Source: Thiobacillus sp. (GTDB taxonomy: Bacteria; Pseudomonadota; Gammaproteobacteria; Burkholderiales; Thiobacillaceae). From it: a stretch of 64,000 nucleotides of DNA. Below, in pieces: positions 16,501-45,258 of this stretch. The stretch covers positions 62,001-126,000 of the forward strand of contig JAUYCF010000041.1 of assembly GCA_030692355.1 (NCBI GenBank), in the 5' to 3' direction. The translations under genes and the position numbers were made by a program. The first letter of the stretch is position 1. Each line of letters begins with the position of its first letter. The notes beneath the pieces are model-generated. The model worked only from the letters and a program-made list of their open reading frames with translations, made no database searches and was not told the DNA's origin.

Positions 16501-16737
16501 ACCTGTCCGCGAAGGACGCGAAGGGGCGCGAAGGGGCGCGAAGGGGCGCGAAGGGAAACCCCAGGGAATCGCTAATTTGTCATTGCGAGGAGCGCAGCGA
16601 CGTGGCAATCCAGAAATGCCCGCTTAATCAAATACGCTGGATTGCTTCGCTGCGCTCGCAATGACAGCCATAAATTAATCAACGCTTCCCCTGTTTCCCT
16701 TCGCGCTTCTTCGCGTCCTTCGCGGATAAAAGATTTT
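16501..16737. repeat. Nested dyad: outer GCGAAGG repeat enclosing palindromic repeat copy 2
   Basis: TCCGCGAAGGACGCGAAG (16506-16523) has its exact inverse at 16709-16726. Between them, a 10-base unit AAGGGGCGCG is repeated three times in tandem (16521-16550). Inside lies the same palindromic element as at 2358-2543, in inverse orientation: GTCATTGCGAGGAGCGCAGC starts at 16579 and its partner CTGGATTGCTTCGCTGCGCT at 16637. The whole 240-bp gap between rng and the glycosylase gene is thus repeat. It may also act as a transcription end for rng. Confidence 0.85.
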
Positions 16738-18424: not shown

Positions 18425-19339
18425 ATGAAAACGCCTTCCATGCACTTCACCCCCGATTCCTTCCGCGCCTGGCCGACCAAGCGCATTACCCTGCTCGGCA
18501 TGTCCGGCGTCGGCAAGACACACATCTCGCGCATGCTGCGCGGCCACGACTGGTTCCACTTTTCCGGCGACTACCGCATCGGCACGCGCTACCTTGACGA
18601 GCCGATCCTGGACCTCATCAAGCATCAGGCGATGCAGGTGCCGTTTTTGCGCGACTTGCTGCGGCGCGACTGGATCGACATCAAGAACAACATCAAGATC
18701 CACGACCTCGGGCCGGTGCTCACCTTCGTCGGCAAGCTCGGCGGGCCACAGTGGGACGGGCTGCCGCTGGACGAGTTCTCGCGCCGGCAGGCCGCCTATC
18801 GCGACGCCGAGATCGCCGCCATGCGCGATGTTCCGGGCTTCATCCGCAAGGGCCAGGAAGTCTACGGCTACCCGCATTTCGTCAACGACGTCGGCGGCAG
18901 CCTGTGCGAGCTGGACGAACCCGGTGTGGTCGAATTGCTGGCCGAACACACGCTGATCCTATACATCCAGACCACCACCCGCGAGGAAGAGGACACGCTG
19001 ATCCGCCGTGCGCAGTCCGACCCCAAGCCGCTGTATTTCCGCCCGGCCTTCCTCGCCGAGCAGCTGCCGGTTTATCTGAAGGAAAAAGGCCTCGAATACG
19101 TCGCTCAGGTCGAGCCGGACGATTTCGCGCGCTGGGTGTTTCCGCGCCTGTTCCATTCGCGCATCCCGCGCTACGAGGCGATCGCCCAGCCGCATGGCTA
19201 CACGGTGACCTCGCAGGAAGTGGCGCAGGTGCGCGACGAGCGCGATTTTCTGGCGCTGCTGGAAATAGCCATTGCGCGCAAGGGGTCAGGGGCCAGGGGT
19301 CAGGGGTCAGGGGAAGCACATGCCGCTGGTCGCGCATAA
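18425..19339 (+). CDS. Uncharacterised P-loop ATPase/kinase upstream of metA
   Basis: A 304-residue protein with Walker A LLGMSGVGKTH (about residues 23-33), then FHFSGDYRIGTRYLDEP. Later blocks are LGPVLTFVGKLGGPQWDG and a strand LLAEHTLILYIQTT followed by a charged stretch. The fold looks like a small-molecule or shikimate-type kinase, but I cannot name a substrate. The last 19 residues (KGSGARGQGSG...) are encoded by tandem GGGGTCA repeats at 19281-19314 and overlap the metA start by 20 bases, so the natural C-terminus is probably near residue 285. Pairing with metA suggests shared transcription. Confidence 0.65.
   Translation: MKTPSMHFTPDSFRAWPTKRITLLGMSGVGKTHISRMLRGHDWFHFSGDYRIGTRYLDEPILDLIKHQAMQVPFLRDLLRRDWIDIKNNIKIHDLGPVLTFVGKLGGPQWDGLPLDEFSRRQAAYRDAEIAAMRDVPGFIRKGQEVYGYPHFVNDVGGSLCELDEPGVVELLAEHTLILYIQTTTREEEDTLIRRAQSDPKPLYFRPAFLAEQLPVYLKEKGLEYVAQVEPDDFARWVFPRLFHSRIPRYEAIAQPHGYTVTSQEVAQVRDERDFLALLEIAIARKGSGARGQGSGEAHAAGRA
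19281..19314. repeat. Tandem GGGGTCA-type repeat
   Basis: AGGGGTCAGGGGCCAGGGGT followed by CAGGGGTCAGGGG: a short unit of about 7-10 bases repeated four times between the ATPase and metA reading frames. The same type of unit (GGGATCA variant) recurs before lipB (45223-45258) and, inverted, before the TlpA-like gene stop (46032-46060). It lengthens the ATPase frame and displaces the metA ribosome site. Confidence 0.7.
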
Positions 19340-27076: not shown

Positions 27077-27817
27077 CTAGGGGAACACTTTTAATCCAAT
27101 CCCCGTTTTAATGCCATTGCCGTCCCGGCAAAACTTCTTTTCCAGCACAGCATGTGTACGGTTGATCTGTTCAGGCCGCAACACCGATAAGCCTATGGGG
27201 CGCGCAGTCAAATCCGCAAGCTGCATGCCTTCTGAATTGGTTCTCTTGTCCGCTACCACCAACTCAAACGGTAATGGCTTGTTGAAGATATTCCTTCCAT
27301 CCCGGATACGGCGGAATTCAAGTTCCAGCTCGGCATCTTCCTTTGCGCCTCGTGCCTCGCAGACCAGATGCGTTAGCCGGCCGTCTTGTCCCATATTTTT
27401 CAGGTAACGGTAGATGCGTTCCAAGCCGAACTCCATCGCCAGATGGTAGGGGTGTTCTGGTGTGGCGTATCGGGCTTTCAATTTGTGCTTGTCGATTACT
27501 ACCGCCACCAGCCTGAAATCGGCAGCCTCGATGATGTCAGTCAAGGTGTTCAGGAAGTGTTCCCGTGCCCCCTTGCCCAGCTTGGAAAACAGTCCCTTCT
27601 TTTTCCGGATATCGATCTCGTGCAGGATGGCCATGTCGTGGCCAAAGGTTTCGAATTTCAATCGGCGCACCGCTGGCGTCATCGCCTGGGCGTATTCGTC
27701 CTTGCGGAAAATGCAGAAGGACAGGACAAATATGGGGTACTCGGGGTCAATGGATACGAGGCTGTGGTCGCCGCTTTCGTCCACGTAGACGATGTAGTCG
27801 CTGAAAGCCGTCGTCAT
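27077..27817 (-). CDS. DUF3800 protein, operon partner of the MmeI-like enzyme
   Basis: A 246-residue protein. YVDESGDHS (D13, E14, D17) opens the domain, HEIDIRKKKG follows, and VVADKRTNSEGMQLADL (D190, D202) closes it. These acidic positions fit the RNase H-like fold proposed for DUF3800, so a nuclease is plausible but unproven. Its ATG overlaps the stop of the MmeI-like gene by 4 bases (ATGA), which implies co-translation. DUF3800 genes are frequent in phage and defence islands. Confidence 0.8.
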   Translation of the reverse strand: MTTAFSDYIVYVDESGDHSLVSIDPEYPIFVLSFCIFRKDEYAQAMTPAVRRLKFETFGHDMAILHEIDIRKKKGLFSKLGKGAREHFLNTLTDIIEAADFRLVAVVIDKHKLKARYATPEHPYHLAMEFGLERIYRYLKNMGQDGRLTHLVCEARGAKEDAELELEFRRIRDGRNIFNKPLPFELVVADKRTNSEGMQLADLTARPIGLSVLRPEQINRTHAVLEKKFCRDGNGIKTGIGLKVFP

Positions 27818-30669
27818 GGGGCAATCGCGCCTTCTTCCTGAAGCGTTTTTGCCTTGTTGGTGCGTTTTTTTGCGGCCGTTTGAGGCAGCAGCGACGTCAA
27901 TGTCTGGTAACGCGCGAACAGAAACGCCACCCGCTCGGCGTCGGACTTGAAGCCGGATTTTCCGTAGGCCTTGTCCACCGCGGCGTCGAGTTTCTGGTGC
28001 GCTTTCAACAGCGCGGGCGGCATGGAGAGCGGGTCGTAGAGGTCACCCAGCGTCGAGCCGGGGAATTGCGCGCGGGCGTCGAGCACGGCTTGTGCGGCGG
28101 CTTCGATGGCCTGCCGGCCTTTGTCGGCCGGGGCGTCGGGCCAGGGGAAGTTGTTGTAGACGATGCCGGCGGAGTAGCGGTAATCACTTTTCAGGCGGCC
28201 GCACACCGAACGCACCCAAGCCATGTGCATGGTCGAGGTCAGCACGCCGAAGTGGTAGAGGGTGGCGTGGGGGACGATCTTCACCAGATTGCTGCTCAAG
28301 GTATCCGGGTGCATGAATCCGATGGGAATCCAATCCCGGCGTTCCGAGGAGACTTCTGGAATCAACAGGTAGGTCGACGCCGGCATGTTCTCGACATGGA
28401 AACGCGTCGGCGTATCGGCGAGCTTCTGCGTCGGCGGCGACTTGCTCGCCAGCCGGAACTGCCTGACGGCCTCCACGCGTTTCATCGCCTCGGGCATCTG
28501 GCGCAGTTCGTTGGGCGGGCAGTCGCCCAGCCACAGGCACCAGCGCTGGTAGCCGTTGATGAACTCGTCCGCGCCCAGCCAGCGGCGGAACCACTTTTCG
28601 ACCTGTGGCTCGCGGCGCAGGAATTCGGCTTTCTCGTCGTCGCTGAACAGGTAGTGGCCGCCGTCGATGGGCTTGTTGCCAATGCCGATTCCCGGCACCG
28701 GGCAGATCGGCGTGCGGCGGTTCTCCAGCACCACATCCGGCGCATCCACCAGATACGGATTGATGTTGGCCGCTGGCAGGGCGTGCGGCTCGCCCCGGAT
28801 ATCTGCGTATTCGTAAATGGTTTTCCCGGCCACATCGCCGAGGCCGAAGCCGACGATGACGCAGTGCACCGCGGCCTTGCCGCGCGCCTCGTTGCTCCAC
28901 GAAAAAGTGCGGTGGGCGAAGTGGATTTTTACCCCCTGATTCAGCAGCCAGCCCCACAGCGCGCCGACTTGTTCGCCCTGGGTGATGGAGTTGGTCGAGA
29001 CGAAGGCGGCGCGGATACCGTCGTTGCGCGGCGCATCAATCCATTTGCCGGCGTCCGGATCGCCACGCCCCTGCGGGTCTCGCGATGACGCCGACATATA
29101 GCGCGCCGCCTTCACATACCACGCCGCGACAAAATCCAGCAGGCCGGCATTGCCGACGCCTTCGAACACCGCGCGAGCGTCGGCGCGCTGGGCGTCGTCC
29201 ATGAACTTGGCGCCGACGAACGGCGGGTTTCCCATCACGTAGCTCGCCCGTTCCGCCGGCAGCACGTCGTTCCAGTCGAGCGTGAGCGCGTTGCCGTGGA
29301 CGATTTTCGGGCTGGTCTTCAAGGGAATGCGGGCGAAATACATGCCGAATTCCTCGCTCACCTTGAGGTTCATCTGGTGGTCGGCCAGCCACAGTGCGAC
29401 CTGGGCGATTTGCGCGGGGAACTCCTCGATTTCGATGCCGTGGAACTGGTCGACGTCCAGCGCGATCATCTGGTGCACGTCGAGCGCGAGCTGGCCGGTG
29501 GTATGGGCGGCGCGCAGCAGTTCCAGCTCCAGTTGCCGCAACTCGCGGTAGGCGATGACCAGAAAATTGCCGCAGCCGCAGGCGGGGTCGAAGAAGGTGA
29601 GGTTGCGTAGCTTTTTGTGAAACTCGAACAGCTTGTTCTTGTTGCCCTTGATCTTGTGGAACTCGGCCCACAACGCATCGAGGAACAGCGGCTTGATGAG
29701 CTTCTGGATGTTTTCCTCGCTGGTGTAGTGCGCGCCCAGGTTGCGCCGCGCCTTGTCGTCCATGATCGACTGGAACAACGCACCGAAGATGGCGGGCGAG
29801 ATTGCGGCCCAATCCAGCGCGCAGCAATCGAGCAGTGCATCGCGCATGGCCGCATCGAAAGCGGCGATGGGTAGCGGCTCCTCGAACAGCTTGCCGTTCA
29901 CATAGGGAAAGGCGGCGGTCTGTTCGTCGAGATTTTTCGAGCGCTTGTCTTCCGGCGTGTTCAGCGTCTGAAAGTACTGCGTCAATTGCGCGCCGAGATC
30001 GGAACCATCCTGCGCGGTGCGCTCGTCGAGCCAGATCCGGAAACTGCCGGCGGGCTGGAAGATGCCGGTGTCCTCGGCGAACAGACAGAACAGCAGGCGC
30101 ACCAGCAGGACTTCCAGCGGGTGGCCTTCGTAGCCGCTGGCGCGGAGCCGGTCGTGCAGCTTGCCCATGCGCTCGGCGGCCTTGATGTTGACTGGGTTTT
30201 GCGGCGCGATGACCTGGGTGCGATAGCCCGCGACGAAGGCAAAATGCTTGATGCGCTTGTGCAGGTCGGCGAGCTTGAATTCGGCCTCGCTACCGTCTTC
30301 CAGATCGTAGAGCCGAAAGCGCTCGAAGTCGGACACCAGGATGTAGCGCGGCAGATCGCGCTCGGCGATGCCGTCGAAGTAGTCCGCGGCCTGCGCGAAG
30401 GCGCGGTTGAGGTCGGCACCGCGACTTTTGTGCTCGATCAGAAGCATGCCTTTCCAGAAGGCGTCGATGCGGCCGTGCTTGAGCTTTTCGCCCGCGCGCG
30501 TCATGGCGACCTGCTTCTCGAAAATGGCGACGCGCTTGCGCTCGATGCCGAACACGGCGAAAAAATCGTTCCAGAAGCTTTGCGCTTCGGCGCGTTCGGA
30601 TTCTTCGTCAATCCACCTTTTCGAGAATTCGTGGGCGCGGCTGCGGATTTCGTTCCAGCTAAGTGGCAT
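27814..30669 (-). CDS. MmeI-like type IIL restriction-methylation enzyme
   Basis: A 951-residue single-chain protein. The N-terminal nuclease motif is D69-x9-E79-x-K81 (RIDAFWKGMLLIEHKSRG), the same D-x9-ExK spacing as MmeI. A helical spacer follows, then an adenine methyltransferase with FFDPACGCGNF (D361) and NPPFVG (N481). A target-recognition part spans about 610-860, with a C-terminal helical segment. Such proteins cut about 20 bases from an asymmetric site and methylate one strand. Residues about 527-550 (SSRDPQGRGDP...APRND) are an in-frame palindromic repeat. Alternative: a type IIG/BREX-like methylase, but the nuclease motif favours MmeI. Confidence 0.87.
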   Translation of the reverse strand: MPLSWNEIRSRAHEFSKRWIDEESERAEAQSFWNDFFAVFGIERKRVAIFEKQVAMTRAGEKLKHGRIDAFWKGMLLIEHKSRGADLNRAFAQAADYFDGIAERDLPRYILVSDFERFRLYDLEDGSEAEFKLADLHKRIKHFAFVAGYRTQVIAPQNPVNIKAAERMGKLHDRLRASGYEGHPLEVLLVRLLFCLFAEDTGIFQPAGSFRIWLDERTAQDGSDLGAQLTQYFQTLNTPEDKRSKNLDEQTAAFPYVNGKLFEEPLPIAAFDAAMRDALLDCCALDWAAISPAIFGALFQSIMDDKARRNLGAHYTSEENIQKLIKPLFLDALWAEFHKIKGNKNKLFEFHKKLRNLTFFDPACGCGNFLVIAYRELRQLELELLRAAHTTGQLALDVHQMIALDVDQFHGIEIEEFPAQIAQVALWLADHQMNLKVSEEFGMYFARIPLKTSPKIVHGNALTLDWNDVLPAERASYVMGNPPFVGAKFMDDAQRADARAVFEGVGNAGLLDFVAAWYVKAARYMSASSRDPQGRGDPDAGKWIDAPRNDGIRAAFVSTNSITQGEQVGALWGWLLNQGVKIHFAHRTFSWSNEARGKAAVHCVIVGFGLGDVAGKTIYEYADIRGEPHALPAANINPYLVDAPDVVLENRRTPICPVPGIGIGNKPIDGGHYLFSDDEKAEFLRREPQVEKWFRRWLGADEFINGYQRWCLWLGDCPPNELRQMPEAMKRVEAVRQFRLASKSPPTQKLADTPTRFHVENMPASTYLLIPEVSSERRDWIPIGFMHPDTLSSNLVKIVPHATLYHFGVLTSTMHMAWVRSVCGRLKSDYRYSAGIVYNNFPWPDAPADKGRQAIEAAAQAVLDARAQFPGSTLGDLYDPLSMPPALLKAHQKLDAAVDKAYGKSGFKSDAERVAFLFARYQTLTSLLPQTAAKKRTNKAKTLQEEGAIAP
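29019..29090. repeat. In-frame 72-bp palindromic repeat inside the MmeI-like gene
   Basis: Read on the minus strand it starts CGTCATCGCGAGACCCGCAG and reaches GGCGATCC, then ends with the inverse of CGTCGTTGCGCGGCGCATCA. This is the same architecture and partly the same sequence as the intergenic element at 16579-16665 (CGTCATTGCGAG...GGCAATCC). Its length is 24 codons exactly, so the frame is intact. It falls between NPPFVG and the AAFVSTNSITQGEQ block of the methyltransferase. Confidence 0.72.
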
Positions 30670-36651: not shown

Positions 36652-37746
<1,095 letters not shown>

Positions 37747-39132: not shown

Positions 39133-41025
39133 ATGGGTTTCGCCACGCAACTGAAAAACCTGGATCGTGAGCTGGCCCGCTTTCATGGGCGGCTGAAAGC
39201 GGGCGCGGCTCTTGTCGCGCTGCTGGCGGCCGCGCTGCTGGCGCGCGGGTTTTATCTGCAGGTCGTGCAGCACGAGCACTATATCCAGCGTGCCGAAAGC
39301 AACCGTATTTCGCGGGTGCCCACCGCGCCCAACCGCGGGCTGATCCTCGACCGCAACGATCGCATCCTGGCGGAAAACTATTCGGCCTACACGCTGGAGC
39401 TGACGCGGGCGCGGACCGACAACCTGGAGGCCACGCTGGCCGGGGTGGGCGCGCTGATCGAGATCACGCCGGGGCAGCTGCGGCGTTTTCGTCGTTTGCT
39501 GAGCGAGTCGCACGAGTTTGAAACCGTGCCGCTGAAAAGCAAGCTGACCGACGAGGAGGTGGCGATCATCGCCGCCAACCGCTATCGCCTGCCGGGGGTG
39601 GAAGTGAAGGCGCGGCTGTTCCGCAACTACCAGGCCGGGCCGGGCATGGCGCACGTGCTTGGGTTTGTCGGCCGCATCAACGATCGCGACCTGCAGCAGC
39701 TGCGCGACAATGGCCGCGAGCAGAACTACAAGGGCAGCGCCCATATCGGCAAGACCGGGCTGGAGCAGAGCTACGAAACCCTGCTGCACGGCCGCACCGG
39801 CTTCGACCAGATGGAGACCGACGCCAGCGGCCGGGCGGTGCGCATGCTGTCGCGGATCCCGCCGGTGCCGGGCAAGGATCTGCGCCTGCATCTCGATGTG
39901 GCGCTGCAGGCGGTGGCCGAACATGCGTTCGGCGATTACCTCGGCGGGCTGGTGGCGCTCGACCCCAACACCGGCGGGGTGCTGGCGCTGGTCTCCCGGC
40001 CCGGATTCGACCCCAACCTGTTCGTCGACGGCATCGATCCGGAAACCTGGAAGTCGCTCAACGAATCGCCGGAGCGGCCGATGGTGAACCGCGCCCTGCG
40101 CGGCATCTACCCTCCCGGTTCGACGATCAAGCCGTTGATGGCGCTGGCCGGCCTCGAACTGGGGCTGCGCAAGCCGTCGGACAGCATCAACGATCCCGGC
40201 GTTTTCAGTCTGCCCAACAGCAGCCATCAGTTCCGTGACTGGAAACGCGGCGGGCATGGGGTCGTCGATCTGCGCCGATCCATCTCCCAGTCGTGCGATG
40301 TCTACTATTACCGGCTGGCAGTGGACATGGGGATCGATCGGATGCACGACTACCTGGCGCAGTTCGGCCTGGGCCAAAAAACCGGCATCGACCTGGACGG
40401 CGAGTCGGCCGGACTGCTGCCCTCGCGCGACTGGAAGCAGCGCCGCTTCAAGCAGCCCTGGTATCCCGGCGAGACGGTGATTGCCGGCATCGGTCAGGGC
40501 TATCACCTGACCACCCCGCTGCAGCTGGCGGTGGCGACGGCCATGCTCGCCAATGGCGGCGTGCGGATCGAGCCGCGCCTGGTGCAGGCGGTGCGCGACC
40601 CGCTTGCCCATACCTGGCAGCCGCAGCCGGGTGGCGCGCGCGCCCAGCTGGCGATCACTCCGAAACACCTGGAGGTCGTACGCGAAGGCATGATGGACGT
40701 GATGCGCCCGGGCGGCACCGCGGCCAGATCGGCAGCCGGCGCCCCCTACACCGTCGCCGGCAAGACCGGCACCGCGCAGGTGGTCGGCATCAAGCAGGGC
40801 GCGCGCTACGACGCCAGCCGGCTGGCGCGGGAGCACCTCGATCATGCGCTGTTCATTGCCTATGCGCCGACCGAGAACCCCACCATCGCGGTGGCGGTGA
40901 TGGTGGAAAACGGCGGCTCGGGCAGCGGCGTCGCGGCGCCGATCGCGCGCGCGGTGTTCGATTACTACCTGACCGGGAAGCGACCCGGCGAAATGAAACT
41001 GGAGGCGGAAAATGCCGCGGACTAG
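39133..41025 (+). CDS. mrdA: Penicillin-binding protein 2 (elongasome transpeptidase)
   Basis: A 630-residue class B PBP. One transmembrane helix lies at about 22-42, with a dimerisation/pedestal domain at about 45-250. The transpeptidase domain has S330 in YPPGSTIKP, SxD in SISQSCDVYYY, and K544 in AGKTGTAQV. All three catalytic motifs are intact, unlike the PBP5-type gene downstream. It cross-links lateral-wall peptidoglycan together with RodA. The stop lies within the start region of rodA (14-base overlap). Confidence 0.96.
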   Translation: MGFATQLKNLDRELARFHGRLKAGAALVALLAAALLARGFYLQVVQHEHYIQRAESNRISRVPTAPNRGLILDRNDRILAENYSAYTLELTRARTDNLEATLAGVGALIEITPGQLRRFRRLLSESHEFETVPLKSKLTDEEVAIIAANRYRLPGVEVKARLFRNYQAGPGMAHVLGFVGRINDRDLQQLRDNGREQNYKGSAHIGKTGLEQSYETLLHGRTGFDQMETDASGRAVRMLSRIPPVPGKDLRLHLDVALQAVAEHAFGDYLGGLVALDPNTGGVLALVSRPGFDPNLFVDGIDPETWKSLNESPERPMVNRALRGIYPPGSTIKPLMALAGLELGLRKPSDSINDPGVFSLPNSSHQFRDWKRGGHGVVDLRRSISQSCDVYYYRLAVDMGIDRMHDYLAQFGLGQKTGIDLDGESAGLLPSRDWKQRRFKQPWYPGETVIAGIGQGYHLTTPLQLAVATAMLANGGVRIEPRLVQAVRDPLAHTWQPQPGGARAQLAITPKHLEVVREGMMDVMRPGGTAARSAAGAPYTVAGKTGTAQVVGIKQGARYDASRLAREHLDHALFIAYAPTENPTIAVAVMVENGGSGSGVAAPIARAVFDYYLTGKRPGEMKLEAENAAD

Positions 41026-42112
41026 CCACTGGATCGTGCGCAGGCTGAGTCATCTGGACGGCATTCTGCTGACCCTTGTGCTCGTGTTGCTGGGCATCAG
41101 CCTGGCGGTGGTTGCGAGCGCCTCGGGGCAGAGCCCGGCGCGCATCAGCGGCCACCTGGTCAACATCGGGCTGGCGCTGGGGGTGATGGTGGTGATGGCC
41201 AATGTGCCGCCGCATCTGCTGTCCAGGGTGGGGCCGCCCTTGTTTGTCGCGGGCGTGGTGCTGCTGATCGGGGTGGCGCTGTTCGGCGAAGTCCGCAACG
41301 GCTCGCGGCGCTGGCTGAATCTGGGCTTCATGGCGTTCCAGCCGTCGGAACTGCTGAAGCTGGCGCTGCCCCTGACGCTGGCCTGGTATTTCCAGCGCAA
41401 CGAGGCGGTGCTGCGCGCGAAGCACTTCCTGGTCGCCGGCGTACTGCTGCTGGTGCCGTTTCTGCTGATCCTGCGCCAGCCCGATCTGGGCACGGCGCTG
41501 ATGCTCGGTGCATCGGGCTTCTACCTGCTGTTCTTTGCCGGCCTGCCGTGGAAGGTGATCTTCGGCGGCGGGGTGCTCGGCGCCGCCGGCCTGCCGGTGG
41601 TGTGGGGCCTGATGCACGACTACCAGCAGCGCCGCGTGCTGACCCTGCTCGATCCCACGTCCGACCCGCTGGGCGCCGGCTACCACATCATCCAGTCGAC
41701 CATCGCGATCGGTTCGGGCGGACTGTTCGGCAAGGGCTGGATGCAGGGCACGCAAAGCCAGCTCGATTTCATCCCGGAGCGGACAACCGATTTTGTGTTC
41801 GCCGTGTTCGGCGAGGAATTCGGCTATGTCGGGGCGATTTTCCTGGTGGGGCTGTATCTGGCCATTGTCGCGCGCGGCCTGGTCATCGCGGCGCGGGCGC
41901 CGACGCTGTTCGGCCGGCTGATGGCGGCCACGCTGAGCCTCAATCTGTTCACCTACGCATTCGTCAACATGGGCATGGTGTCGGGCATTCTGCCGGTGGT
42001 CGGCGTGCCGTTGCCGTTGATGAGCTACGGCGGCACCGCGCTCATCACGCTGCTGCTGGGGATGGGCATCCTGATGAGCGTGGCGACGCATCGCCAGCTC
42101 AACAAATCGTGA
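41012..42112 (+). CDS. rodA: Rod-shape peptidoglycan glycosyltransferase RodA
   Basis: A 366-residue SEDS-family polymerase with about ten membrane segments. NGSRRWLNLGFMAFQPSELLKL, in part GFMAFQPSELLKLALPL, and LRQPDLGTALML are SEDS signatures. DFIPERTTDFVFAVFGEEFGYVG (core IPERTTDFVFAVFGEEFGY) and GVPLPLMSYGGTALI are the conserved loop and last helices. RodA polymerises lipid II with PBP2. rlpA follows after 17 bp. Confidence 0.95.
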   Translation: MPRTSHWIVRRLSHLDGILLTLVLVLLGISLAVVASASGQSPARISGHLVNIGLALGVMVVMANVPPHLLSRVGPPLFVAGVVLLIGVALFGEVRNGSRRWLNLGFMAFQPSELLKLALPLTLAWYFQRNEAVLRAKHFLVAGVLLLVPFLLILRQPDLGTALMLGASGFYLLFFAGLPWKVIFGGGVLGAAGLPVVWGLMHDYQQRRVLTLLDPTSDPLGAGYHIIQSTIAIGSGGLFGKGWMQGTQSQLDFIPERTTDFVFAVFGEEFGYVGAIFLVGLYLAIVARGLVIAARAPTLFGRLMAATLSLNLFTYAFVNMGMVSGILPVVGVPLPLMSYGGTALITLLLGMGILMSVATHRQLNKS

Positions 42113-42129: not shown

Positions 42130-42963
42130 ATGAACAAGATATCGATACCGATCCTGGGCATGCTTGCCGCCGTGCTGGCGCTCGCCGGCTGCGGCAGCAG
42201 CCCCTCCACGCCCACCCAGTCCGCGCCCGCCACGACGGCCAAAAGTGGCGGCTATTATCTCGACGACGGTCCCGAGGCCCAGCCGCCGGCCAATCTGGAT
42301 GCCGTTCCCGACGCGGTGCCGCGCGACGAACCGCTGCATCGCTTCGCCAATCGCACCTATGCCGTGCTGGGCAACACCTACACGCCGCAGGCCACGCGTC
42401 GCGAGCACCGCGAGGAAGGCCTGGCCTCGTGGTACGGCAAACGCTTCCACGGCAAGAAAACCGCGTCGGGCGAGGCCTACGACATGTATGCCATGACCGC
42501 CGCGCATCCCACCCTGCCGATCCCGAGTTACGCGCGGGTCACCGCGCTCGACAGCGGCAAGTCCGTGGTGGTGCGCATCAACGACCGCGGTCCGTTTCAC
42601 GGCAAGCGCGTCATCGACCTGTCGTATACCGCTGCCCATAAGCTCGGCTACCTGAAGCGCGGCAGCACCCGTGTGCGGGTGGAAAGCCTCGACCCCACCG
42701 CCTATGACACGCAGGGCGAGGCGTTGCAAGAAGGGATCTACCTGCAGGTGGGCGCGTTTTCACGCGCCGACAATGCACGGAAACTGCTCGACCGCCTGAC
42801 AGGCGAGCTTGACCTCGACACCCGCCGCAGCCGTGTGGTGCTCAACGGCACCCTGCACCGCGTGCAGCTCGGGCCTTATCCCGGTGACGACGCGGCGCAG
42901 GCGGATCGCGCGCGGGTGCGGGAACGTCTCGACCTGAATGCGGTCTTCGTCAGACGCGATTGA
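42130..42963 (+). CDS. rlpA: RlpA-family septal ring lipoprotein with SPOR domain
   Basis: A 277-residue lipoprotein. Lipobox LALAGC (cysteine 21), then a low-complexity linker, then a double-psi beta-barrel: EGLASWYGKRFHGKKTASGE, VVVRINDRGPFHGKRVIDLSY. This barrel includes the aspartate and histidine needed for lytic transglycosylase action on denuded glycan. A C-terminal SPOR domain (about 203-277: GIYLQVGAFSRADNARKLLDRL in part) binds septal glycans. It sits between rodA and the carboxypeptidase-like gene, as in many beta- and gammaproteobacteria. Confidence 0.93.
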   Translation: MNKISIPILGMLAAVLALAGCGSSPSTPTQSAPATTAKSGGYYLDDGPEAQPPANLDAVPDAVPRDEPLHRFANRTYAVLGNTYTPQATRREHREEGLASWYGKRFHGKKTASGEAYDMYAMTAAHPTLPIPSYARVTALDSGKSVVVRINDRGPFHGKRVIDLSYTAAHKLGYLKRGSTRVRVESLDPTAYDTQGEALQEGIYLQVGAFSRADNARKLLDRLTGELDLDTRRSRVVLNGTLHRVQLGPYPGDDAAQADRARVRERLDLNAVFVRRD

Positions 42964-42980: not shown

Positions 42981-44096
42981 ATGAAGATTTTCTGGCTGGG
43001 GCTGGCGCTCCTGCTTTCCACATCGGCCTGGGCGGCGCCTGCCGGCATCATGGCGCGCGCCTGGGTGGTGATCGACCAGACCAGCGGACGCGAGCTGGCT
43101 TCGTATCAGGCCGATCTGCCGCTGGCGCCGGCCTCGCTGACACAGCTGATGACGGCCTACGTGCTGCTGGGCGATATCCGCAAGAACAGGCTGAGCCTGG
43201 GCGAGGCGCTGACCGTGCCGGAATCCGCCACCGAGGCCGACGGCGCACGCGTATTTCTCAAGGCGGGCGAGCAGGTGAGCGTCGACACCCTGCTGCAGGC
43301 GATGCTGGTGCAATCGGCCAGCGATGCCACGCTTGCGCTGGTGACCGCGACCGACGGCAGCGAGGCGGCGTTTGTCGAGCGCATGAACCACGAAGCCAAG
43401 CGGCTCGGCATGACCAAAACCCGTTTCATGAACGCCACCGGATTGACCGAGCCGGGGCACGAATCGAGCGCCCGCGACCTCGCCTTGCTGTCGCGCGCGC
43501 TGTTGCGTGATTTTCCCGAGCGGCAGGATTTATTTACGCAAAAGGAACTGGCCTTCAAGGGCATCACGTATTACAACGGCAATCGCCTGTTATGGCGCGA
43601 CAGCACGGTGACCGGCCTCAAGGTCGGGCGCACCGTCCAGGCCGGCTACTGCATGGCGGCGTCGGCCCGGCGCGGCGACCAGCGCCGCATCGCCGTGGTG
43701 CTGGGCGGGCGGTCCGACGCCCAGCGCACCCAGGATGCCTTGCGCTTGCTCAATTACGGCTTCGAGAATTTCGAAAGCGTGCGGCTCTACCGCGCGCAGC
43801 AGCCGGTCAAGGTGGTGCCCCTCTACCGCGGCGCGCGCTCGACGGTGAGCATGGGGTTTGCGCAGGATTTTCATTTGCTGGTTCCCACGGGCAGCGCCGT
43901 TCGCGTCAAGGCCGAAGTCATCACCCAGCAGCCGATCATGGCGCCGGTGCGCAGAGGCCAGCGCATGGGAACGCTGCGGCTGGTGCTCGACGGCAAGCCG
44001 GTCGGCGACTATCCCCTGGTCGCGCTGCACGATGTCGCCGTGGCGGGCATCTTCGGACGCGGCTGGGATTCGATCCGGCTCTTCTTCGGCAAATGA
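42981..44096 (+). CDS. PBP5/6-like D,D-carboxypeptidase family protein with all catalytic motifs lost
   Basis: A 371-residue secreted protein with signal peptide MKIFWLGLALLLSTSAWA and full PBP5 architecture, including the C-terminal beta domain and amphipathic anchor ([13 protein letters not shown]). The three active-site motifs are altered. SxxK is SLTQ (S52, Q55 in APASLTQLMTAYV), SxN is SAS (112-114 in VQSASDATLAL), and KTG is KVG (214-216 in GLKVGRTVQAGYC). The general-base lysine is absent, so D,D-carboxypeptidase activity is not expected. No frameshift or stop, and its neighbours are the conserved rlpA and dat. It probably has a structural or regulatory role. Confidence 0.9.
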   Translation: MKIFWLGLALLLSTSAWAAPAGIMARAWVVIDQTSGRELASYQADLPLAPASLTQLMTAYVLLGDIRKNRLSLGEALTVPESATEADGARVFLKAGEQVSVDTLLQAMLVQSASDATLALVTATDGSEAAFVERMNHEAKRLGMTKTRFMNATGLTEPGHESSARDLALLSRALLRDFPERQDLFTQKELAFKGITYYNGNRLLWRDSTVTGLKVGRTVQAGYCMAASARRGDQRRIAVVLGGRSDAQRTQDALRLLNYGFENFESVRLYRAQQPVKVVPLYRGARSTVSMGFAQDFHLLVPTGSAVRVKAEVITQQPIMAPVRRGQRMGTLRLVLDGKPVGDYPLVALHDVAVAGIFGRGWDSIRLFFGK

Positions 44097-44956
44097 GCGC
44101 TTATCTCAACGGCCGGTTCCTGCCGCTTGCCGACGCGAAGGTTTCGGCGCTCGACCGTGGCTTCGTCTTCGGCGACGGCGTCTACGAATTGATTCCGGTG
44201 TACTCGAAAAAGCCGTTCCGGCTCGACGAGCACCTGCGCCGCCTGCAGGGCAGCCTCGACGGCATCCGCCTGGCCAACCCGCATGAAGCCAAGGTTTGGC
44301 GCGAAATGATCCTGCGGCTGGTCGAACTGCAGGACTTCGCCGACCAGTCGCTCTACATCCAGGTCACGCGCGGCACGCCTGTTGAGGGACAGCCGCCGCG
44401 CGATCATGCCTTTCCGCGGGGCGTGCCGCCGACCGTCTTCATGTTTTCACAGCCGCTGGTGACGTCCACGCCCGCGCAAAAGGCCGCCGGGGTGTGCGCC
44501 GTCAGCGCCGTCGACAACCGCTGGCAGCGCTGCAACATCAAGGCGATCTCGCTGCTGGCCAACATCCTGCTGCGGCAGCAGGCGGTCGACGCCGACTGTG
44601 CCGAAACCGTGATGCTGCGCGACGGCTTCCTGACCGAAGGCGCGGCAAGCAATATCTTCGTGGTGAAGGACGGCGTGCTGCGGGCGCCGCAGCCGTCCAG
44701 CCTGATGTTGACCGGCGTCACCTACGACGTGGTGCGGGAGCTCGCCGCCGCGCACGGCATTCCGCATGAGGTACGGGCGATTTCCGAGGCCGAGGTGCGC
44801 AGTGCCGACGAGCTGTGGATGACATCGTCCACCAAGGAAATCATGGCCATCGTGAAACTCGACGGCGTGCCGGTCGGCGCCGGCGTGCCGGGACCGCTGG
44901 CGCAGCGGATGGACGGCTTGTATCAGGCTTTCAAGCAGCAGGTCATGCGCGCATGA
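44093..44956 (+). CDS. dat: D-amino acid aminotransferase (class IV PLP enzyme)
   Basis: A 287-residue class IV aminotransferase. The PLP lysine is K150 in [39 protein letters not shown] and [15 protein letters not shown] are conserved, and [22 protein letters not shown] closes the cofactor site. Such enzymes make D-alanine or D-glutamate for the cell wall, consistent with the flanking peptidoglycan genes. The ATG overlaps the upstream TGA (ATGA), and its stop overlaps ybeD. Confidence 0.92.
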
Positions 44957-45219
44957 GCGAAGAAGAGACGCTGCTGAAATTCCCTACCGATTTCCCGGTC
45001 AAGATCATGGGCGAGCGGCGCGACGACTTCGCGCAGACCATGGTCGAACTGGTGCTGCGCCACGCCCCCGATTTCAAAGCCGAAACCATCGAGATGCGGG
45101 CGTCCAGCGGCGGCAACTATCTGTCGGTGACCTGTGTGGTGCGCGCCACCTCGAAGGCGCAGCTCGATGCGCTGTATCGCGAGATCACCGCGCATCCGTG
45201 GGTGAAGATGGCGTTGTGA
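44953..45219 (+). CDS. ybeD: YbeD family protein (DUF493/HP0495)
   Basis: An 88-residue protein: [20 protein letters not shown], then [33 protein letters not shown] (core [20 protein letters not shown]) and [17 protein letters not shown]. It matches YbeD/HP0495, a small ferredoxin-like alpha-beta fold. The gene is almost always beside dat/dac and lipB; its biochemical role is unclear, and an allosteric or regulatory role is proposed for the family. A repeat run separates it from lipB. Confidence 0.93.
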
Positions 45220-45222
45220 GTG

Positions 45223-45258
45223 CCAGGGATCAGGGATCGGGAATCAGGGATCAGGGAG
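45223..45258. repeat. Tandem GGGATCA-type repeat before lipB
   Basis: CCAGGGATCAGGGATCGGGA then ATCAGGGATCAGGG: a 7-8 base unit repeated four times, in the same orientation as the GGGGTCA run before metA at 19281-19314. If translation starts upstream (GTG at 45198 or 45216), it would encode the low-complexity stretch [13 protein letters not shown] treat it as spacer. Confidence 0.75.

Follow-up and report, generated by a model that had tools for sequence, protein, structure and literature searches.

The dacA locus in the elongasome gene cluster

The window analysed here is a stretch of 64,000 nucleotides of Thiobacillus sp. (contig JAUYCF010000041.1 of assembly GCA_030692355.1, positions 62,001 to 126,000). 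The gene under study is a dacA-like reading frame, referred to below as the degenerate dacA, that lies in a cluster of elongasome genes with the following features:

36706..37746, + strand: mreB, upstream in the elongasome gene cluster (Pfam MreB_Mbl)
39133..41025, + strand: mrdA, encoding PBP2 (Pfam Transpeptidase and PBP_dimer)
41012..42112, + strand: rodA (Pfam FTSW_RODA_SPOVE)
42130..42963, + strand: rlpA, directly upstream of the degenerate dacA (Pfam DPBB_1 and SPOR)
42981..44096, + strand: degenerate dacA, encoding a putative PBP5 pseudoenzyme of 371 aa (ORF without internal stop; Pfam; genus-wide orthologues)
42981..43034, + strand: predicted signal peptide, residues 1-18, ending in STSAWA before AP (sequence reading)
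43134..43145, + strand: SxxK position, reading SLTQ, with S52 and Q55 (direct reading and alignment)
43314..43322, + strand: SxN position, reading SAS, with S112 and S114 (direct reading and alignment)
43578..43580, + strand: G200, an Arg in 99% of intact relatives (alignment)
43620..43631, + strand: KTG position, reading KVGR, with K214, V215, G216 and R217 replacing His; KVG itself at 43620-43628 (alignment)
43770..44036, + strand: PBP5_C beta domain, residues 264-352 (Pfam, 65.4 bits)
44049..44087, + strand: C-terminal amphipathic helix, residues 357-369, presumed membrane anchor (AlphaFold model; alignment)
44093..44956, + strand: dat-like class IV aminotransferase gene (Pfam Aminotran_4), its start codon overlapping the stop of the degenerate dacA (ATGA)
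44953..45219, + strand: ybeD (Pfam DUF493)

The names mreC, mreD, lipB and lipA, as used for further genes of the window, are putative assignments that take account of position. An earlier, sequence-only reading had located the gene between rlpA and dat, and the Pfam assignments of both neighbours confirm this. The order rodA/rlpA, degenerate dacA, dat is found throughout Thiobacillus, dat being detected at 52/52 of the loci, and in the other genera of the family rlpA adjoins dacA at 15 of the 16 loci examined, the remaining one being adjoined by dat-ybeD.

The frame and architecture, described earlier as kept, proved to be so. The 371-aa reading frame has no internal stop, its Peptidase_S11 match scores 208.6 bits against a cut-off of 27.6 and its PBP5_C match 65.4 bits against a cut-off of 21.2. 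The AlphaFold model (mean pLDDT 91.2) is PBP5-like, with the ten best Foldseek rows all being PBP5/PBP6 structures at query-normalised TM scores of 0.79-0.90. Helix 357-369 is conserved in the alignment, with low pLDDT at its end in the model. By fold and descent, the protein is a PBP5 relative. It shares its fold, two-domain architecture and C-terminal helix with PBP5 (DacA) of E. coli and P. aeruginosa, and its gene adjoins rlpA like those of gamma- and betaproteobacterial PBP5 relatives; what sets it apart from the PBP5 of these two species is that lysine is missing from SxxK, asparagine from SxN and threonine from KTG.

Loss and retention of active-site residues

Direct reading and all 53 near-full-length Thiobacillus copies at this locus, from which these same lysine, asparagine and threonine residues are absent, bear out the motif letters SLTQ, SAS and KVG reported from the sequence alone. 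Position 55 is Q in 52/53 copies and H in one, position 114 is S, G, V, T or A but never N, position 215 is V in 45 and A in eight (KVG/KAG), and position 217, a His in intact relatives, is R in 51/53. The further statement that all three active-site motifs are lost has to be narrowed: one residue is gone from each, leaving none of SxxK, SxN and KTG, the motif features of an active S11 D,D-carboxypeptidase, complete, but S52, S112, K214 and G216 are retained in 53/53 copies. Among the 52 copies compared, silent variation is seen in the codons of S52, S112 and K214, and A113 is fixed (53/53).

The K, N and T of the three motifs are present in 94/94 intact-type sequences, a set comprising 16 from the family, 21 Thiobacillus paralogues, 28 from the order and 29 named ones, in which the order-set locus L201 comes from family genome G047 and had already been included as L072; the genomes carrying G handles overlap with the named loci, and their two motif counts are not independent. 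Against this set the positions lost in the degenerate dacA include K55, N114, T215, H217, R200, E122, S89 and Q197; several of these lie within the motifs or next to them. The replacements at 114, 200 and 122 are still drifting, and those leading to Q55, A113 and R217 are fixed or nearly so. We take K55 and N114 to have served serine activation and T215, R200 and H217 to have gripped the substrate, as presumed from PBP5 chemistry; which of the lost residues line the pocket, and the equivalent E. coli PBP5 residues other than S44, are likewise presumed.

When relatives from the same family were aligned, the substitutions were common to all 53 Thiobacillus copies and absent from the 16 other-genus copies examined (of 61 genomes), the best match in each of which keeps SxxK, SxN and KTG. 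Every one of the 117 family genomes searched gave a match, and a near-full-length orthologue was found in 53/56 Thiobacillus genomes. As for the other three, the orthologue of G071 is split into two frames (L057/L164) and was dropped from the counts, G088 holds a short fragment only, which may be the C-terminal part, and G086 yielded no match of this type.

Codon-pattern searches gave a comparable picture. PA-S-[ILM]-T-Q, a pattern that would miss other lysine replacements, occurred in 1/369 class genomes, the window's own. A strict Q/H-type pattern, which misses some SLTQ copies, was found in 48/56 Thiobacillus genomes and in one of the 61 other-genus family genomes, G107, where the letters PARMTHFM do not belong to a dacA site; the K-type pattern was found in 112/117 family genomes. 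In two genomes from other genera, G029 and G040, the K-type pattern occurs a second time, within genes for PBP5-like S11 proteins that have an AGY serine codon (L268 and L269); at 36-40% identity, these proteins are not close relatives of the Thiobacillus paralogue described below.

Some records of Thiobacillus genomes carry looser or doubtful bin names. Many of the genomes are metagenome-assembled (MAGs), which would speak for a sequencing or assembly artefact as the source of the motif losses. The losses, however, are common to many separate assemblies, including those of T. denitrificans RG (L097) and T. thioparus DSM 505 (L125), two named strains with records that do not carry the MAG label. 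An artefact was rejected on this ground, and we put its likelihood close to nil.

Selection on the degenerate gene

The median dN/dS of the degenerate dacA was 0.207 (1228 pairs, not independent of one another, from 52 copies, L053 being left out for a run of X), as compared with 0.216 for rlpA and 0.242 for dat; the values of these neighbours may be too high, as both genes were delimited by stop codons at either end. The intact paralogue gave a median of 0.276 in its own set of 21 genomes. Because the value lies near those of its neighbours, a decaying pseudogene was rejected: the gene is constrained, under purifying selection and not decaying. It combines two features expected of a pseudoenzyme, the loss of catalytic residues and conservation under purifying selection.

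By region, pN/pS was 0.281 in domain I and 0.361 in the beta domain of the degenerate dacA (paralogue, 0.290 and 0.618), with the signal peptide giving the highest value among the regions measured (0.48). Positions once used in catalysis now vary: at the set of lost sites, chosen because they had changed, the ratio was 0.445 in the degenerate gene versus 0.049 in the paralogue. In 38 matched genomes, the degenerate gene and the paralogue gave 0.282 versus 0.250 in domain I and 0.349 versus 0.508 in the beta domain. The beta domain was lower in the degenerate gene in 355/462 matched pairs, but in only 9/17 non-overlapping pairs, and an extra constraint on this domain is not claimed.

A related proposal is that the gene is on its way out and kept solely because of polarity within the operon or because its translation is coupled to that of dat. 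The ATGA overlap of its stop with the dat start would agree with this, as would the split frame of G071, be it an assembly error or real damage. The dN/dS of 0.21 and the open frame of the 53 copies, which are 71-96% identical to the window's own where they are not that copy, stand against it and render it very improbable.

An intact paralogue and its origin

A search of the rest of the genome for another PBP5/6 located an intact PBP5 with the motifs SLTK/SGN/KTG on contig C109 of the window's genome (G000). Three S11 proteins occur in this genome, namely the degenerate DacA, the intact PBP5 and a protein on C116 that is nearest to the PBP7-type endopeptidase model, albeit below that model's cut-off; an S13 protein is also present. 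Across the genus, the intact paralogue was found in 55/56 genomes, the exception being G079, which is 75% complete. The sequence-only reading had offered a retained pseudoenzyme or a transfer of the activity to a paralogue as alternatives; with a fixed, constrained degenerate dacA and the intact gene on C109, the evidence favours both together.

The paralogue is adjoined by a dihydroorotate-dehydrogenase-family or dicarboxylate-symporter-family gene at 19 of the 20 loci checked in the genus. In 5/5 longer loci, a gene of the alanine dehydrogenase/transhydrogenase family lies near it. These neighbours, being common across loci, suggest that the paralogue arrived once in Thiobacillus. In a quick tree with SH-aLRT support only, it nests among Gammaproteobacteria (100) and groups with a protein of G568 (99), to which it is 58% identical; G568 retains its own copy at an rlpA-dacA-ybeD-lipB locus. 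The degenerate dacA clade, on the other hand, lies within Thiobacillaceae dacA as sister to genus g12, with SH-aLRT values of 99 and 98 in two trees and a support of only 85/77 in a bootstrapped tree.

A duplication inside Thiobacillaceae was rejected as the source of the paralogue by the AU test (p 6.7e-5). The same test did not reject a grouping with all betaproteobacteria (p 0.124), so that a wider betaproteobacterial origin is disfavoured by the tree and the serine codon rather than by the AU test; both groups were defined with the tree already known.

The codons TCN and AGY, both encoding serine, cannot be interconverted by one silent change. The catalytic serine codon is AGY at 49/49 paralogue loci, which include repeats of one genome, and at 29/29 gammaproteobacterial loci (L208-L236), which are the best paralogue matches and hence a sample biased towards it. 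TCN was found in all 52 degenerate dacA copies read (of 53), in 16/16 family dacA genes and in 27 of the 28 order loci, the remaining one having AGY. Among the named loci, AGY was found in 19/19 from Gammaproteobacteria, fetched by patterns of the degenerate dacA, and TCN in 10/10 from Betaproteobacteria. The AGY of the paralogue, set against the TCN of the native lineage, points to the gamma side as its source, and the intact paralogue appears to have been horizontally acquired. A plasmid search matched 225 records, none of them at 60% identity or above.

Proposed history and role

The motif losses, their fixation, purifying selection on the gene, its native locus and the presence of an intact, foreign-looking paralogue are all supported by the sequences compared. 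From these we infer, at a probability of about 0.6, that the acquired PBP5 took over the carboxypeptidase work and that the native dacA became a conserved pseudoenzyme with a role exerted by occupancy or docking; this inference covers the loss of carboxypeptidase activity, the succession of the events and the function of the protein alike. A Thiobacillus ancestor would have acquired a gammaproteobacterial PBP5 gene at another locus, and its product would have assumed the D,D-carboxypeptidase work. The native dacA would have stayed put in the mre-mrdA-rodA-rlpA-dacA-dat cluster, losing serine-activating (K55, N114) and substrate-gripping (T215, R200, H217) residues, and would have been kept as a secreted, membrane-anchored protein of PBP5 fold that does not trim pentapeptides. 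Such a protein probably binds stem peptides or partner proteins, most likely recognising PBP partners or stem peptides via its beta domain and the partly kept pocket (S52, S112, K214), and may act by occupancy, in that it shields pentapeptides, competes for them or docks next to PBP2/RodA.

The literature, drawn on here through excerpts of the cited reports, bears on this role from both sides. The inactive PBP5 S44G was reported to worsen the shape defects of E. coli (PMC4916385), which means that PBP5 has effects even when catalytically dead, and in minimal medium the inactive protein is lateral and avoids midcell (PMC5596342). PBP6a binds pentapeptide mimics, hydrolyses them poorly and may protect them (PMC5596342), and DacA and DacC depend on the C-terminal domain for most of their physical contacts with PBPs (PMC10269652). 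Against an occupancy role, the excerpts describe that inactive PBP5 or PBP6b fails to restore E. coli shape, the authors holding that activity matters (PMC4916385), that DacC S66G gave no complementation (PMC10269652) and that septal localisation was lost in PBP5 S44G (PMC2909392).

A different proposal would make the degenerate DacA a regulatory subunit, a hetero-dimer partner tuning the acquired PBP5. Both genes co-occur in nearly all genomes of the genus, and the dimer state of PBP5-type enzymes in E. coli is described as shifting with activity (PMC5596342). Co-occurrence within one genus, however, amounts to a single evolutionary event, and we consider this proposal improbable.

The retention of S52, S112 and K214 deserves fuller consideration. 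We judge it to be more than a pure scaffold would need, and residual or new activity is therefore possible. The protein might still be enzymatically active, as a serine hydrolase that manages without the lysine, K214 activating S52 via S112 (Ser-Ser-Lys); with several residues of the pocket missing, its substrate would presumably be an altered one. The three residues are invariant in 53/53 copies while K55, N114, T215, H217 and R200 are lost, their codons varying silently as noted above. They are also the equivalents of S67, S124 and K231 of E. coli PBP7, which are essential, the S67A, S124A and K231A variants being non-toxic, whereas K70A, altered at the equivalent of the lost lysine, is still toxic (PMC11586513). 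The premise of the sequence-only reading that the SxxK lysine is required to activate the serine is accordingly less secure for this family than stated, although the PBP7 authors also raise the possibility that K70A acts as an inactive competitor, and too little of this variant accumulated in that report for its binding of Bocillin to be assessed (PMC11586513). PBP7 K70A resembles the degenerate DacA in being without the SxxK lysine while the Ser/Ser/Lys set remains; it differs in being an engineered single change in an endopeptidase, not a set of many natural pocket changes (PMC11586513). A dominant competitor would fit the residue pattern as well as a hydrolase without the lysine would, and the loss of several further pocket residues, at positions that still vary, weighs against the hydrolase, which we regard as unlikely. 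Also unlikely, though only slightly less so, is the suggestion that the native protein, once freed by the foreign PBP5, became a new kind of S11 protein, either a lysine-free Ser-Ser-Lys acyl-enzyme with another envelope substrate or a receptor dedicated to stem peptides, which it would not hydrolyse, encoded in the elongasome operon; we advance it tentatively, behind the conserved pseudoenzyme acting by occupancy or docking.

Relation to known systems

Hydrolases of the LytM type belong to a family other than S11/PBP5. The inactive LytM regulators, such as DipM, resemble the degenerate DacA in that a degenerate cell-wall hydrolase is kept as a regulator (PMC10336132). Closer by descent is PBP6a (DacC) of E. 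coli, itself a PBP5 paralogue and a proposed pentapeptide protector whose D,D-carboxypeptidase activity was weak or absent in some assays (PMC4916385, PMC5596342); unlike the Thiobacillus protein, in which catalytic residues are lost, PBP6a has a working active-site serine and showed activity in another study (PMC10269652). Among the open-access matches listed for PBP pseudoenzymes and for Thiobacillus dacA, a scope outside which most subscription papers fall, no PBP5 of the kind described here was found.

Non-catalytic roles of PBP5 have so far been argued from engineered serine mutants of E. coli in the reports excerpted here (PMC4916385, PMC5596342, PMC2909392). Thiobacillus offers a serine-keeping, lysine-free PBP5 fixed genus-wide at the native locus, beside an apparently acquired intact replacement. 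This natural case separates catalysis from the other functions of the native PBP5, and opens to direct test both a scaffold or protector role and the requirement for a lysine in SxxK.

Other features of the window

Downstream of ybeD, the heptamer CAGGGAT is repeated about 4.9 times at 45224-45257, at the 5' end of the reading frame presumed to be lipB; a double CAGGGAT unit was present in one of 48 other loci searched (L124). Further short tandem repeats are the 10-mer CGCGAAGGGG (4.9 copies, 16508-16555) and the heptamer AGGGGTC (4.7 copies, 19281-19313). The minus strand encodes, at 27814-30669, an MmeI-type restriction-modification protein of 951 aa with five MmeI domains.
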